Source: Chloroflexaceae bacterium (GTDB lineage Bacteria > Chloroflexota > Chloroflexia > Chloroflexales > Chloroflexaceae). From it: DNA of 64,000 nt. Shown here piece by piece: positions 14,823-21,319 of this stretch (positions within the stretch are counted from its first letter, which is position 1; each line of letters starts with the position of its first letter). The position numbers and the translations under genes were made by a program. The stretch is from assembly GCA_012032475.1 (NCBI GenBank), contig JAAUSY010000001.1, forward strand, positions 1-64,000, read 5' to 3'. Below the pieces are notes generated by a model that was given only the letters and a program-made list of their open reading frames with translations, did no database searches and was not told the origin of the DNA.

Positions 14823-15282
14823 GCCTGCTCCCTTACCTTCCAGGATAGCTCTGCCCTTCATGATACCACACATGCTGCGGCTGCTTTTCGGCCACCGGGG
14901 CCACGACGGGGACGATATCGGGGTCGGATCGGACGCCAGAAGCCTGACTTTCGCTCCCCATTCCCGGTCGGTTCAGGCATGAGCAACCGGCCTGAACATT
15001 TCTGGGGGAAATTTTGGCGGCGCGGGACAGATTCTCAAATGCTCAAAAAGAAAATTTGCCTGGGAAGAAATGTCCCGATGGGCCGGACATGCCTTTGCAT
15101 TGCAAAAAAGACAACAAAACAGCGTCCGGTGCAAAAATTCTCCCCCGGATTGTGACTGCATCTCCCCGCCCATTTTCGGCGATTCGCCCGGCCTATCGGA
15201 GATGCTTTATCCCTTTAGAAAAAGGAAAAACCCCACAGAAGGGCCACCCCGGCCCCCCATTTTTTTGACTCAGGAGCAACTA
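14823..15282. other. Intergenic region upstream of the puf promoter
   Basis: About 460 bases between the divergent phosphatase gene and the puf promoter. No convincing gene is present. It contains an inverted repeat TGTCC-N9-GGACA at 15071-15089, about 200 bp upstream of the -35 element, and several A-rich and G/C-rich blocks. Such a region would be expected to hold light- or oxygen-responsive regulatory sites for puf, but none is identified with confidence. Confidence 0.5.
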
Positions 15283-15311
15283 TTGACAAATTCTGTTGCT
15301 TCCTATATAAT
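15283..15311 (+). promoter_or_regulatory. Consensus sigma-70 promoter of the puf operon
   Basis: A perfect TTGACA at 15283-15288, 17-bp spacer and perfect TATAAT at 15306-15311. Transcription would start at about 15318, giving a 165-nt leader before pufB. It is the best promoter in the window and fits the high expression of light-harvesting genes. Confidence 0.85.
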
Positions 15312-15317
15312 CATGGC

Positions 15318-15482
15318 GAACGTCGGGGTGGTCAAAAGAAAGTCCAAACCGCTAGAGCCTACGAAGCGGGAAAAGACCGGGAAAGCCACCTGAGTACACC
15401 CTGGGGCAATCGTTGGATTGCATAACGGTTTCTTTTAGGTAATCTCGTTGGTAAGCTTGAAAAGCGAGGAGGTTAGTTTCTT
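15318..15482 (+). ncRNA. Structured 5' leader of the puf mRNA, candidate cis-regulatory RNA
   Basis: The predicted leader can fold as nested helices: GGTGG (15327-15331) with CCACC (15386-15390), GTC (15342-15344) with GAC (15375-15377), and CCGCT (15349-15353) with AGCGG (15365-15369) closing an 11-nt loop. Purine-rich internal loops lie between them. Farther on, CTCG and CGAG around 15444-15466 can pair just before the GAGGAGG ribosome site of pufB and could occlude it. No known riboswitch class was matched with confidence. Pairings are by eye, not by computation. Confidence 0.45.
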
Positions 15483-15695
15483 ATGGATAAGCCAAAAGAC
15501 GAGTGGGATGATCTGGTACCACCACGGTGGCGAAGCATCTTCAACAACCAGGACTGGCTGATGCACGACATCTATGCCAAGTCGATCTATGGTTTCCTGT
15601 GCATTTCGCTGGTTGTTCACACCCTGTGCTTCCTCTGGAGGCCTCACTGGGGTATTGCGGCTATTCAGGCGGTTCCGGTACCGACTTCATTGTAA
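15483..15695 (+). CDS. pufB: Light-harvesting complex beta subunit
   Basis: A 70-residue antenna peptide. The N-terminal DDLVPPRWRSIFNNQDWLMHDIYAKSIYGF is close to the Chloroflexus B808-866 beta chain as I remember it. A single membrane helix follows with the bacteriochlorophyll-ligating His in CISLVVHTLCFLW (about residue 45). It forms the LH ring around the type-II reaction centre with PufA. A GAGGAGG site lies 11 nt upstream of ATG 15483. The C-terminal tail (GIAAIQAVPVPTSL) extends beyond the usual end of Chloroflexus beta chains. It is first of the puf-bch operon. Confidence 0.95.
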   Translation: MDKPKDEWDDLVPPRWRSIFNNQDWLMHDIYAKSIYGFLCISLVVHTLCFLWRPHWGIAAIQAVPVPTSL

Positions 15696-15713: not shown

Positions 15714-15896
15714 ATGGCTCCACGTTGTCCATTCAGGACCAATGGCGTTGCGTGCGCCGTCGTCGGTCTGATGATCACTCTGCTGCTTCACTTTGTGTTG
15801 CTCAGCTCGCCGCGCTTCAACTGGATCAACCCGCTGACGGTCACGATCCCGGTTGAGTCGTTCAACCACGTTCTGATGTCGCTTGGCCTGATGTAA
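15714..15896 (+). CDS. pufA: Light-harvesting complex alpha subunit
   Basis: A 60-residue antenna alpha chain. It begins MAPRCPFRTNGV, has one transmembrane helix and the bacteriochlorophyll ligand His in GLMITLLLHFVLLSSPRFNW, a pattern shared with the Chloroflexus alpha chain. An AAGGAGAGG site precedes the ATG. It starts 18 nt after pufB. Together with PufB it should form the B800-type/B880 antenna. A strong hairpin follows in the 240-nt gap before pufC, probably adjusting the ratio of antenna to cytochrome message. Confidence 0.95.
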   Translation: MAPRCPFRTNGVACAVVGLMITLLLHFVLLSSPRFNWINPLTVTIPVESFNHVLMSLGLM

Positions 15897-15960
15897 GCCA
15901 GCAATTTGTTGGATGTTTCCTACATCCGAAACCAACAATTTGTTGGGTGCAGGAACTCCG

Positions 15961-15993
15961 CACGACCGCCAGCAGTTCCTGTTGGCGGTCGTG
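15961..15993 (+). terminator. Strong stem-loop between pufA and pufC (attenuator or mRNA stabiliser)
   Basis: A 14-bp stem (15961-15974 with 15980-15993, one G-T wobble) with a 5-nt loop GTTCC, followed by U-rich but not poly-U sequence. A smaller hairpin GGATGT/ACATCC sits upstream at 15911-15927, flanked by two copies of CAATTTGTTGG. Placement between antenna genes and pufC matches the intercistronic hairpins that set LH to RC stoichiometry in purple-bacterial puf operons; function here is inferred. Confidence 0.7.
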
Positions 15994-16137
15994 TGTTGTG
16001 TCTTGTATGGTGAGACGAAAACGCCTGGTGCCTCTTGATTAGTGATGGTGCAAGCAAAAAGCGTGACCTGGGAAGATATTCATCATGAACCGAGTGAAGG
16101 CAGGCGTTCAGTTAGCAGCTAAAAGGAGGCCCATGCC

Positions 16138-17623
16138 ATGTGGAAGTTGAGTCAACGACAGTTACGGAAGATCGTGGTGGCCGTCTCTGTCGTTGTCATG
16201 ATGGGGATTGTCTGGTTGGCAATTCTTGGTATCTGGTTGATCCACGATATTGCGTATGTTTATAACTATGATAAGTTTAACGAGATAACTGCTGGTCTCA
16301 CCTCGGTAGAGGATTACGAGACCCTCTGGGCCGATACCAATGGTCTCGACCCGTATCTTCTGGAGAAGGTTTGGGCCGCTCCTTATGACTCTGCAAAGAA
16401 TTTGCAGCGCATTACCCAGACCCAACCGAATGTGCCAGAAGGGGAAACTCTGCCGGATGGTCGCCAGGCTTGGTACGGATTCGATAACTGGACGGCGGGG
16501 GTACAGGCAGGGTCGGAATACATCGCCCAGTTCGCGGACCCTCAAAACATGCAGGTGTTGACGGGCTTGGACACCGCCCAGACCTGGGCTTACATGCAGC
16601 AACAAGTCTCTGGGGCGTTGGCCGTCGGTTGCCAGTACTGCCATGATGTCAATGCCGGGAGCGATGGGAACTACCTCTTCAATGAGGATACGTTTGCCCA
16701 GAAGACGTCGGCCCGCAGTATGATGAACCTGGTCAATGACCTGAACGCCACGTATATGGTGAACCTGCCCTACTGGCGGGGCAACTACGTAACCTGTGCC
16801 ACGTGCCACAGCGGTCTTGGCAACGGGCGCGGTACCCCGACCCACATGGAAGGGGTGTCGGATGAGTTTGTGAAGAGTGTTCCGCCGCAGCGCGTCAACC
16901 TCGATCCGCTGGATGAGAATGGCGTGCCGCTCATTCTGCCCGAAGAGAAACCCGAAGAACTGCGCGGGCGGCTCTTGCTCCAGGATGCGACCCTCTGGCT
17001 CTACTACAACTATTCGGTCTTCGAACCCTACAATCCGGCCAACCCGAAGAGTGGTCGTGGGTCCCTGGCGATGGTCTGGCCGTTCGAGAAACCGCGAACG
17101 ATTGATCAGGCAACGATCCAGACCAACGTGATGAACTCGAATGCCTGGTCCCTGGGCGTTGGCTGTACCTACTGCCACGCCCGCGGAACTGGTATAACTA
17201 TGAGATTACGTCCGAAGCACCGATGCTGGATGGTCAGGCTATCTCCCCCAGAATCAAGGCCCAGCGCATGCTGCTGATGATGACCTTCATTGCGAAGAAC
17301 TGGACGGAGTATGGGGCTATCGCCAAGGAACAGACCATCGGGGCAACCGCTCCCAGCTCGAGCGTGCTGGGTGACCCGATTGGGGTCGGCCACCGTGACC
17401 CGCCAGCAGAATCCATGGGTGAACTGGCGTGGCCGTCCCGGCCCAATGACCTGCCACGGGTGGGCTACCTGGCCGGCGCCGACACTATCGCCAGATTGAT
17501 GGCGAGTGGTATAATATGCCTGGTTGCACCACCTGCCACGGACGCCAGAGCATCCCGCGGGCGGTGATCAACGAGAGCGAAGTTCAGGAGACGACCTTGC
17601 CGTCTGAACTGCGCGGCATGTGA
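16138..17623 (+). CDS. pufC: Four-haem reaction-centre cytochrome c (c-554 type), two frame breaks
   Basis: ATG 16138 follows AAAGGAGG. An N-terminal membrane helix (IVVAVSVVVMMGIVWLAILGIWL) anchors a periplasmic cytochrome with four haem-binding motifs: CQYCH (~16630), CATCH (~16795), CTYCH (~17164) and CTTCH (~17522). This is the tetrahaem donor that re-reduces the type-II reaction centre. The frame breaks twice: near 17180-17187, where one added base restores NWYNYEITSEAPMLDG, and near 17483-17486, where GACAC read as GACCAC restores HYRQIDGEWYNMPGCTTCH. With both repairs the protein is ~495 residues and ends ELRGM. Both lesions lie outside haem motifs. Assembly error is likelier than decay, since all four motifs survive. 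Confidence 0.88.
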
Positions 17624-17657
17624 TCCAGTTAGCAGGATAATAGGGAAAGGGTTGAGT

Positions 17658-18641
17658 GTGAGTAAGCCCCAGGAAGGGCAACCCGTTGCGCGGTCTGAGG
17701 TAACCACTCCTCAGACCGCGCAATCAAGATCTTCAGGATTGAAGGAGAAAGCGGGCATCAGCGCGGTGATTGACCATTCGCTGGCGCTGATGAATCCCGT
17801 GACCTGGCTTGCACCCGCATGGGCCTTCTTTTGTGGCGCAGTCGCAAGTGGGGCATGGGGGTGGTCGCTGGAATCTCTCGGACGGGTTGCGCTTGGAATG
17901 ATGATGGCGGGACCAATCCTTTGTGGTCTGTCCCAGGTAATCAATAACTACTGTGACCGGGAAGTTGATGCGATTAACGAACCCCACCGCCCGGTTCCGT
18001 CCGGGTTGGTGTCGTTGCGCCACGTCCAGGTGATGTCGCTGCTTCTGACGGTTGCCGGGTCGTCCATTGCGCTCTTGCTAGGGCGCGAGGTGGCCCTCTT
18101 TGTTGGTATCGGCCTGATTTTTGCCATTTCCTATAGCCTGAAGCCGTTCCGGGCCAAGCGCAACGGGTGGGTTGGCAATGCCCTGGTTGCCTTTTCCTAT
18201 GAAGGTCTGGCGTGGTTGGCCGGACACGCCGCCATGGCGGCCCCGCTGTTTTGGGATAGCCCCAATCTCTGGAAAAGTGCGACGCTGGCGTTCCTCTATT
18301 CCGTGAGTGCCCACGGCATTATGACCGTGAATGATTTCAAGAGCATCGTTGGTGATACCCAGATGGGGATTAAGAGTATTCCCGTGATGTACGGGGAGAA
18401 GGTGGCAGCCTGGTTGGTGGTGCTCAAGATGTCGCTTGCCCAGGCTCTCGTAGTGGTACTGCTCTTCTGGTGGGGCAATCCGGTGGCTGCGGTGGTGGTT
18501 TTGCTCCTCCTGCTGGCGCAGATCGTCCCCTTCCGGCGCTTCCTTCGCCATCCATCGCCCAATGCGGTCTTTTTCAACCTGACCGCCATTCAACTGTCTA
18601 TCTGGGGAATGCTCGTTTCGGCGCTTGGTCTGGCCCTTTAG
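17658..18641 (+). CDS. bchG: Bacteriochlorophyll a synthase (prenyltransferase)
   Basis: A UbiA-superfamily polytopic protein of ~327 residues. It attaches the isoprenoid tail to bacteriochlorophyllide a in the membrane. Visible motifs are the first Asp-rich NNYCDREVDAINEPHRPVPSG (prenyl diphosphate and Mg binding) and the second NDFKSIVGDTQMGIKSIPV. About eight hydrophobic segments are present. The start is GTG 17658, or TTG 17652 two codons earlier; AAGGG precedes both. It begins 34 nt after pufC and leads directly into bchP, the order seen in relatives of Chloroflexus. Intact frame. Confidence 0.95.
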   Translation: MSKPQEGQPVARSEVTTPQTAQSRSSGLKEKAGISAVIDHSLALMNPVTWLAPAWAFFCGAVASGAWGWSLESLGRVALGMMMAGPILCGLSQVINNYCDREVDAINEPHRPVPSGLVSLRHVQVMSLLLTVAGSSIALLLGREVALFVGIGLIFAISYSLKPFRAKRNGWVGNALVAFSYEGLAWLAGHAAMAAPLFWDSPNLWKSATLAFLYSVSAHGIMTVNDFKSIVGDTQMGIKSIPVMYGEKVAAWLVVLKMSLAQALVVVLLFWWGNPVAAVVVLLLLLAQIVPFRRFLRHPSPNAVFFNLTAIQLSIWGMLVSALGLAL

Positions 18642-18660: not shown

Positions 18661-19922
18661 ATGACTCAACGTGTGCTGGTGGTCGGGGCGTCGGTTGGTG
18701 GTGCAACCGCAGCCATTACCCTCCGGGCTGCGGGTATCGAGACGGTGATGGTGGAACGTGAGTTGCACCGCGCCAAACCCTGCGGGGGGCTGTTCCGCCC
18801 GCAGCGTTTCAGGAATTCGACTTGCCGTCCCACCTCATAGATCGCAAGGTCCTGAATTGCCTGGTGGTGTCGCCTGGCGACCGTCAGGTCCGCTTTCCGG
18901 TGGTTGGCACCATACCCACGGACCACGATTATGTGGCAATGGTGCGGCGAGAGGTCTTCGACGGCTTTCTCCGCGAACGTGCCCAGGAACGCGGGGCGAC
19001 CCTGGTTCAAGGCACGTTGCTGCGCCTCTATGTGACAGACGCAGGCGTGGAGGCGACCTATCGGGACTGCCAGGGAGATGAGCGGATGGTGCATGCGGAT
19101 GCGGTCATCGGAGCCGATGGGGCCTATTCAACGACGGCCAGGTTTCTTGGCCTGCGGCCCCAACTGGACTCGGTGGCACTTCAGGAACGCATTGCGCTGC
19201 CACCAGCGCAGATGGCGCGTTGGGAGGATACCGCTGACCTCTATCTGGGGCGCGATGTCAGCCCGGATTTCTACGGGTGGGTGTTTCCGAAGGGTGACCA
19301 TGTGACCGTTGGGGTTGGCATTGGCCGCCAGTATGCCCGTTCGGCCCGGCAATATCTGGAGCAACTGAAGACGCGCCTAGGGGCAGCGCTGGATGGGGGA
19401 AAGGTGGTGTGCCGCGAGGCGCATGTGCTCCCGATGACGCCCTATGCGCATATGGCGTTTGATCGGGCGCTGCTGGTTGGAGATGCCGCGGGGTTAGTGG
19501 TCCGCACGTCGGGCGAGGGTATCTACTGGGCGATGAAGAGCGGGGAGTTGGCGGCCCAGGTGCTGGCCGAATATCTGGATACGCCCACGGCTCAGCATCT
19601 CCGCGCCTATGAACAGCGCTGGTGGAAGAAGTATAAGAGCATGTATACCCTGCTGCGTTATCTCGAAATCTGGGGGTATCGTAACGAGCGCCAGATGGAG
19701 GTCTTCACCGATATGTGTGGAAGCCCGGAGGTTCAGCGGCTCACGTTCGACAGCTATATGCACAAGAAGATGGCGCCGGCTCCCTGGAAGACGCAACTGA
19801 AGATGACCCGCGATATCCTGGTGAGCCAGGTGCGCCACTACCTCCGGAAGCCTGACAACCCCCGCGCTGCCGCGACGGCTGAGACGGAGGCACAAGAAGA
19901 AGCGGTTACTTCTTCTTCATAG
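18661..19922 (+). CDS. bchP: Geranylgeranyl reductase of bacteriochlorophyll synthesis, frame broken at a G-run
   Basis: A FAD-dependent reductase that saturates the geranylgeranyl tail to phytyl. ATG 18661 follows TAGGAGC. The N-terminus has the FAD-binding VLVVGASVGGATAAITL and VERE. At 18783-18788 a G6 run interrupts the frame: with seven Gs it reads KPCGGAVPPAAFQEFDLPSHLIDRKV and continues to 19922, giving ~420 residues. Downstream landmarks are GADGAYSTTARFLG and LLVGDAAGLVVRTSGEGIYWAMKSGE (second FAD motif). A missing G in a homopolymer is the likely cause. If the lesion is real, the cell would probably make geranylgeranylated pigment. Confidence 0.9.
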
Positions 19923-20526: not shown

Positions 20527-20745
20527 ATGCGACAGTTCGGATCAAAGCTACGCGCTCTGCGGGAAAGCCGTGGGATGACCCTCATGGAACTGGCTCAAGC
20601 GCTAGGATATCCGGTGAGCAATAATAGCTATATTAGCCAGGTTGAGACCGGCAAGCGCGTTCCAAAGGCAGATTTCATCCTGAAGGTTGCCACCTTTTTT
20701 GGGGTTTCTGCCGATCAGCTTATGCGGGATGACCTGGAGGTGTGA
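20527..20745 (+). CDS. XRE-family transcriptional regulator (tandem copy 1)
   Basis: A 72-residue protein that is almost entirely an HTH_3/XRE domain: MRQFGSKLRALRESRGMTLMELAQALG, then SYISQVETGKRVPK as the recognition region, ending FGVSADQLMRDDLEV. There is no effector domain. No ribosome site is seen and the likely transcription start is a few nucleotides upstream, so translation may be leaderless. It is first of three paralogues in line. A perfect palindrome just upstream could be its own operator. Confidence 0.9.
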   Translation: MRQFGSKLRALRESRGMTLMELAQALGYPVSNNSYISQVETGKRVPKADFILKVATFFGVSADQLMRDDLEV

Positions 20746-20833
20746 AGTACAGGCAGGTAGTCCCTGATCGTTCACCCAGGTTCCAATCCAAACGGATGGG
20801 GCGGTTTTTCCTCAATACGATTGAAAGTTGCTC

Positions 20834-21053
20834 ATGCAGCGCTTCGGGAAAAAATTGCGGGTGCTCAGAAAGCGACATGGCTTGACGTTGACAGAACTGG
20901 CCGAAACGCTTGGATATACTGCCTATAGCAACAGCTACCTGAGTTTGATTGAGAATGGCAAGAAAAAGCCAACCGCAGAACTTGCCCTGAAGGTTGCTAC
21001 CTTTTTTGGGGGTTTCTGCCGATCAGCTTATGCGGGATGACCTGGAGGTGTGA
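20834..21053 (+). CDS. XRE-family regulator (tandem copy 2), frame broken by one extra G
   Basis: Starts at ATG 20834 (MQRFGKKLRVLRKRHGLTLTELAETLG). It matches copy 1 through KVATFFG and then leaves frame at a G5 run (21008-21012), ending early at 21040. Copy 1 has G4 at the same place. With four Gs the tail becomes FGVSADQLMRDDLEV, identical to copy 1, and stops at 21053 (72 residues). The nucleotide identity of the 3' end and following spacer with copy 1 shows recent duplication or gene conversion. The extra G is either an assembly error or a fresh mutation in a redundant copy. Confidence 0.82.
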
Positions 21054-21106
21054 AGCATAGCCAGGTAGTCTCCCTGATACCTGTTCTCATCTGTGCCTGG
21101 AATATC

Positions 21107-21319
21107 ATGCGACGATTTGGGGAGAAGCTACGCACCCTGCGAACGGCGCGAGGCATGACGGTCCGTGAGCTGGCGCATGCACTGGGGTATACTTCCCACA
21201 GCCACATCGGTGACGTTGAGATTGGAAAACGAAAGCCTTCGCTGGAGCTTGTCATGAAAGTGGCACAGTTTTTCAAGGTAACGATGGATCAGCTTACCTG
21301 GGATGACCTGGAGGTCTGA
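21107..21319 (+). CDS. XRE-family transcriptional regulator (tandem copy 3)
   Basis: A 70-residue HTH protein (MRRFGEKLRTLRTARGMTVRELAHALG, SHIGDVEIGKRKPSLELV), ending MDQLTWDDLEV. It is the most diverged of the three, with a two-residue shorter recognition segment. It starts 53 nt after copy 2 and ends 40 nt before a peroxiredoxin gene, so it may be co-transcribed with it. Direct partner genes and ligands are unknown. Confidence 0.88.
   Translation: MRRFGEKLRTLRTARGMTVRELAHALGYTSHSHIGDVEIGKRKPSLELVMKVAQFFKVTMDQLTWDDLEV

Follow-up and report, generated by a model that had tools for sequence, protein, structure and literature searches.

The light-harvesting genes of this Chloroflexaceae bacterium are preceded by an unusually long leader upstream of pufB, which raises the question of whether the amount of antenna is controlled by an RNA structure within that leader or by the promoter in front of it. 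We addressed this question using the window, by which we mean the whole stretch of 64,000 nucleotides that was analysed (genome G000, assembled in 310 contigs, of which this is contig 109; it is the only genome of its genus in the comparison set). An earlier note on this DNA had described a perfect promoter that yields a 165-nt leader, and both features were borne out: TTGACA and TATAAT are separated by 17 bp at 15283-15311, and the Shine-Dalgarno sequence and the pufB start codon (ATG at 15483) lie where that note had placed them. The features of the locus are collected in Table 1. Relatives of pufB were found in all 41 family genomes. The gene that follows pufB we take to be pufA from its position in the operon and from features of the family, and the genes for the UbiA prenyltransferase and the geranylgeranyl-reductase-like protein presumably serve bacteriochlorophyll synthesis, which would fit the gene order.

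Table 1. Features of the pufB locus, in coordinates of the window.
Feature	Coordinates	Strand	Basis or remark
Candidate operator, dyad GCAAC-N14-GTTGC around the -35 box	15276-15299	+	read from sequence; imperfectly conserved
-35 box TTGACA	15283-15288	+	identical in 42/42 family loci
-10 box TATAAT, spacer 17	15306-15311	+	box and spacer 17 identical in 42/42 family loci
Predicted 5' leader of the pufBA transcript	15318-15482	+	position between promoter and pufB; start predicted
Predicted nested stem (15326-15330/15397-15401; 15342-15344/15375-15377; 15349-15353/15365-15369)	15326-15401	+	minimum-energy fold, z -0.92; without comparative support
Predicted small hairpin GCAAUC-GUUG-GAUUGC	15406-15421	+	stretch 15402-15446, z -1.68; without comparative support
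Shine-Dalgarno AGGAGG	15467-15472	+	sequence; region conserved in the family
pufB, antenna beta subunit	15483-15695	+	PF00556 (LHC), E 2.6e-4, 21.6 bits, just under the 23-bit cut-off
pufA, antenna alpha subunit (presumed)	15714-15896	+	position and sequence; no Pfam match
17-bp hairpin between pufA and the cytochrome gene	15959-15995	+	scan windows from 15901 and 15951, z -6.57 and -4.14
Reaction-centre cytochrome	16138-17277		PF02276; downstream of pufA
UbiA prenyltransferase	17652-18641		domain scan
FAD/geranylgeranyl-reductase-like protein	18822-19922		domain scan

Twelve perfect promoters with 17-bp spacing occur in this 4.6 Mb genome, and the reversed-pattern control gave none. We compared the regions upstream of pufB in 41 family genomes from 18 genera, which together contribute 42 loci because one genome carries two copies. 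Using a loose expression that permitted variation, we found the same two hexamers and a spacer of exactly 17 bp at every one of the 42 loci. Genus-weighted conservation reached 2.0 bits in the hexamer columns and also at four positions of the spacer, as compared with means of 0.58 bits over leader positions 1-20 and 0.37 bits over positions 21-45. The conserved spacer bases (TTR..TYCYA) were built into an extended pattern, TTGACAN7TTRNNTYCYATATAAT, which gave 41 matches in the 41 family genomes, all at pufB, and no match with the reversed control. The pattern is present in 40 of these genomes, one of which supplies two matches from its two pufB copies; the exception (G010) has a different spacer. 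The genome under study contains a single exact match, at the promoter described above, which identifies this site as a Chloroflexaceae pufB promoter. When up to three mismatches were allowed in five genomes, the five pufB sites were accompanied by six weaker sites, none of which lies in this genome.

Conservation at the DNA level was likewise confined to the promoter: within 15270-15500, the only match to relatives was the block 15275-15311, which was found in 12 of the 41 genomes when this one is counted. The -35 box lies inside a dyad, and the arrangement GCAA-N15..18-TTG spans the box in 36/42 family loci; from the letters of the site, we regard the dyad as a candidate operator. A narrow search of the open-access literature returned no earlier report of a single-copy, invariant pufB promoter. 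With no variation among the 18 genera and a single occurrence at each pufB locus, the promoter block offers a ready bait for its predicted regulator.

The leader downstream of this promoter is long throughout the family, as the earlier note had correctly recognized for this locus in pointing to an unusually long leader and a strong promoter before antenna genes. The distance from the -10 box onward measured 131-288 nt in 42/42 family loci and 109-157 nt in eight loci of the sister family, which indicates that leader length is a lasting trait. A long leader before the antenna operon is not a new kind of thing, and its retention in every family locus suggests some function. No leader base is better conserved among the 18 genera than position 8 after the -10 box (A15319 here), an A in most loci, which makes a transcription start at about 15318 plausible; judged by sequence, the start would be expected at 15318 or 15319. 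In a leave-one-genus-out comparison that covered 22 of the 42 leaders and all 18 genera, leader positions 1-26 matched a common profile at p 0.001 or better in 14 genera. The leader studied here did not match (p 0.074), nor did those of g10 (p 0.08 and 0.18) and g4 (p 0.49), and g15 was counted as non-matching (p 0.82, 0.85 and 0.0035). Elsewhere in the family, contig 284 of genome G014 carries tandem pufB copies (L043, L014), each with its own promoter; their leaders differ greatly (288 and 182 nt), and the longer one folds with a z of -3.2.

We also evaluated the predicted fold of this leader. The earlier note had described nested helices, which are present in the minimum-energy fold of 15326-15401, but the folding energy is equal to that of shuffled sequences. 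Relative to dinucleotide shuffles, the leader was no more stable over 183 nt (z -0.46) or 165 nt (z +0.31 and +0.26), and neither were its halves (z -0.89 for 15318-15406 and -0.77 for 15396-15482). Across the family, 2 of 42 leaders had a fold z below -2. The possible hairpin over the ribosome site, also proposed in that note, is predicted, yet as a minor state: Shine-Dalgarno bases 15469-15470 pair locally at approximately 0.13 in the predicted ensemble, and other Shine-Dalgarno bases pair more often with C15344-45 and C15349-50 (0.55-0.83). Pairing between the 5' end of this leader and its ribosome site did not differ from shuffles (p 0.53).

The sequence of the leader found no counterpart among relatives. 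No DNA match at E ≤ 0.01 was obtained in the 81 other genomes of the order (82 searched with this one), and the sole second match within its own genome spans 19 bases (E 0.37). Covariance models R1 and R2, which were built from the leaders of relatives, did not match it either. No homologue in which compensatory changes would show was found among the 82 genomes, in which its own genus is represented by one. The earlier note had named a lack of covariation or conservation among relatives as what would refute a structured RNA leader, and this check came out mostly against the proposal: covariation turned up in one genus and weakly in another, and not here. None of 4227 Rfam families matched within 15270-15500 at E ≤ 10 or anywhere in the window at the gathering score; weak matches elsewhere were to microRNA or snoRNA models, far below cut-offs. 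These results bear on the suggestion that pufB is controlled by a metabolite riboswitch, whether a GEMM-like sensor of c-di-GMP or a sensor of tetrapyrrole precursors. What speaks for such a switch is the loose likeness of a few short strings (AAACC, AAAGCC) to the GEMM (c-di-GMP-I/II) riboswitch, as pointed out in the earlier note; without a covariance-model match, this resemblance found no support, and the leaders hold no block of bases conserved across genera as a binding core would need. We consider a riboswitch highly improbable, and the outcome makes ligand screens a less worthwhile investment for a leader that is common to no relative. Just as improbable is a short regulatory reading frame of 26 codons at 15313-15393. 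Such a frame is open from the ATG at 15313 to the stop at 15391-15393, as the end of an ORF that begins at 15070, but the ATG lies 2 nt past the -10 box and ahead of the expected transcription start, a later in-frame GTG at 15328 lacks a clear Shine-Dalgarno sequence, and inspection by eye revealed no common frame in the leaders of relatives. On these grounds, we rejected a short leader peptide.

A more serious competitor holds that the leader is a lineage-specific cis-regulatory RNA, in which each genus would keep a fold of its own for one shared task, either mRNA stability or translational control of antenna synthesis, with the nested stem here as one such fold. In addition to the long leader at all 42 loci, evidence for this possibility comes from g10, which is probably Chloroflexus. 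Its eight genomes share a stem-loop of 8+3+5 pairs in the pufB leader with 94.5% of cells paired, as compared with at most 51.2% for slid versions; both partners have changed in 4 of the 16 pairs, and the covariation score was reached by 1 of 500 shuffles. Five leader helices in the six genomes of g6 were 97.6% paired, with two pairs changed on both sides, but that count lies within shuffles (reached by 109/500). Furthermore, a hairpin, GCCAGG-(13 nt loop)-CCTGG, with a well-kept loop precedes the pufB ribosome site in 21 leaders from seven genera, once per genome (alignment A4, which comprises L007, L040 and 19 others); however, 0/7 of its pairs changed on both sides. Model R1, which represents this hairpin, detected 21 of 82 genomes at E ≤ 0.001, all of them founders, along with weaker matches close to the starts of other pufB genes, most of them partial, and it missed the leader studied here. 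Model R2, founded on the g10 loci (L017, L019, L027, L029, L030, L062, L063, L064), recovered at E ≤ 5 among 48 loci its eight founders and three weak matches elsewhere (E 2.9 or worse). The leader studied here was absent from those matches and gave at most 1.3 bits, on the wrong strand, which is noise. A CCGCU/AGCGG stem is found at leader position 38 here and at position 40 in g10, nearly equidistant from the -10 box, which would favor a shared element, but homology through this stem was rejected: the R2 score at 15345-15375 is -0.1 bits, below those of two other sites in the window (14.8 and 15.7 bits). A family-wide helix between the leader 5' end and the ribosome site, as suggested by g6, g16 and g2, was also rejected, since the mean duplex energy of -9.69 was no better than that of swapped partners (-9.77; p 0.54). 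The shuffle-like folding energy of this leader likewise weighs against a lineage-specific RNA at this locus.

Some relatives carry supported, clade-specific leader structure, and the family as a whole shares no one RNA structure. Because of these clade-specific folds, the idea of a regulatory RNA stays alive with about a quarter of the weight, and we regard it as a tentative alternative. It is rather unlikely that one composite switch operates family-wide, in which a regulator would bind the single-copy operator in the promoter while the leader RNA fold is reinvented genus by genus with its job unchanged, the stem here being one version. In the sister family, the outer helix CCCGCG/CGCGGG of alignment A2 (six genomes) is invariant, which argues neither for nor against a conserved structure. 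The corresponding leaders (L049, L050, L051, L052, L053, L056) have in common an invariant GTGAAACCCGCG...GCGCGGG pairing, and each holds a second TTGACA.

The explanation we prefer is that control is exerted at the promoter. The leader lacks conservation among relatives and any sign of a sensor RNA, and control therefore most likely resides in the promoter; because the promoter block is invariant and single-copy and the leader drifts, control at transcription initiation is also the simplest reading. We consider it probable that this is an ordinary pufBA(C) operon leader, a fast-evolving 5' UTR with no riboswitch, and that the amount of antenna is set by the conserved promoter and operator. 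According to this model, a strong and extremely conserved promoter, present once per pufB locus, would drive the pufBA(C) antenna operon. RNA polymerase and a predicted regulator would most likely act on the block 15275-15311, such that the antenna amount would be set at transcription. The leader would supply the ribosome site and, through generic structure, at most tune translation or the lifetime of the mRNA. In Chloroflexus aurantiacus kept under air, the pufBA mRNA in the light exceeds its dark level 9-fold (PMC7308566), which indicates that control is visible at the mRNA level, although RT-qPCR cannot separate transcription from mRNA decay. A second report describes the regulation of the scattered photosynthesis genes of C. 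aurantiacus and its kind as unknown (PMC9316378).

Known RNA elements offer partial parallels. Like the leader proposed here, the psaA, PhotoRC-I/II and psbNH motifs of cyanobacteria are candidate RNA elements tied to photosystem genes; those motifs were catalogued across species or samples (PMC2864571), whereas this leader has neither a relative nor an Rfam match. Among the titles returned by a search of the open-access literature, none dealt with a leader RNA of puf in Chloroflexus or the Chloroflexales. In Rhodobacter, the stoichiometry of the proteins made from the puf operon depends on stabilising elements in the puf mRNA and on ribonucleases, which set it jointly (PMC11354728). The hairpin after pufA occupies an equivalent kind of place here, and such a role would fit this intercistronic hairpin and not the leader, although the bacterial groups are unrelated. 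No other RNA structure predicted in the operon is as strong as this hairpin. A strong hairpin was also observed downstream of pufA in most of the 42 family loci, with arms that are usually CCGCCAGC/GCTGGCGG and flanks that vary.

Downstream of the operon, small helix-turn-helix proteins are encoded one after another (20527-21319). The products of 20527-20745 and 21050-21319 match helix-turn-helix families, and a similar ORF lies between them (20828-21040); these proteins are possible regulators.
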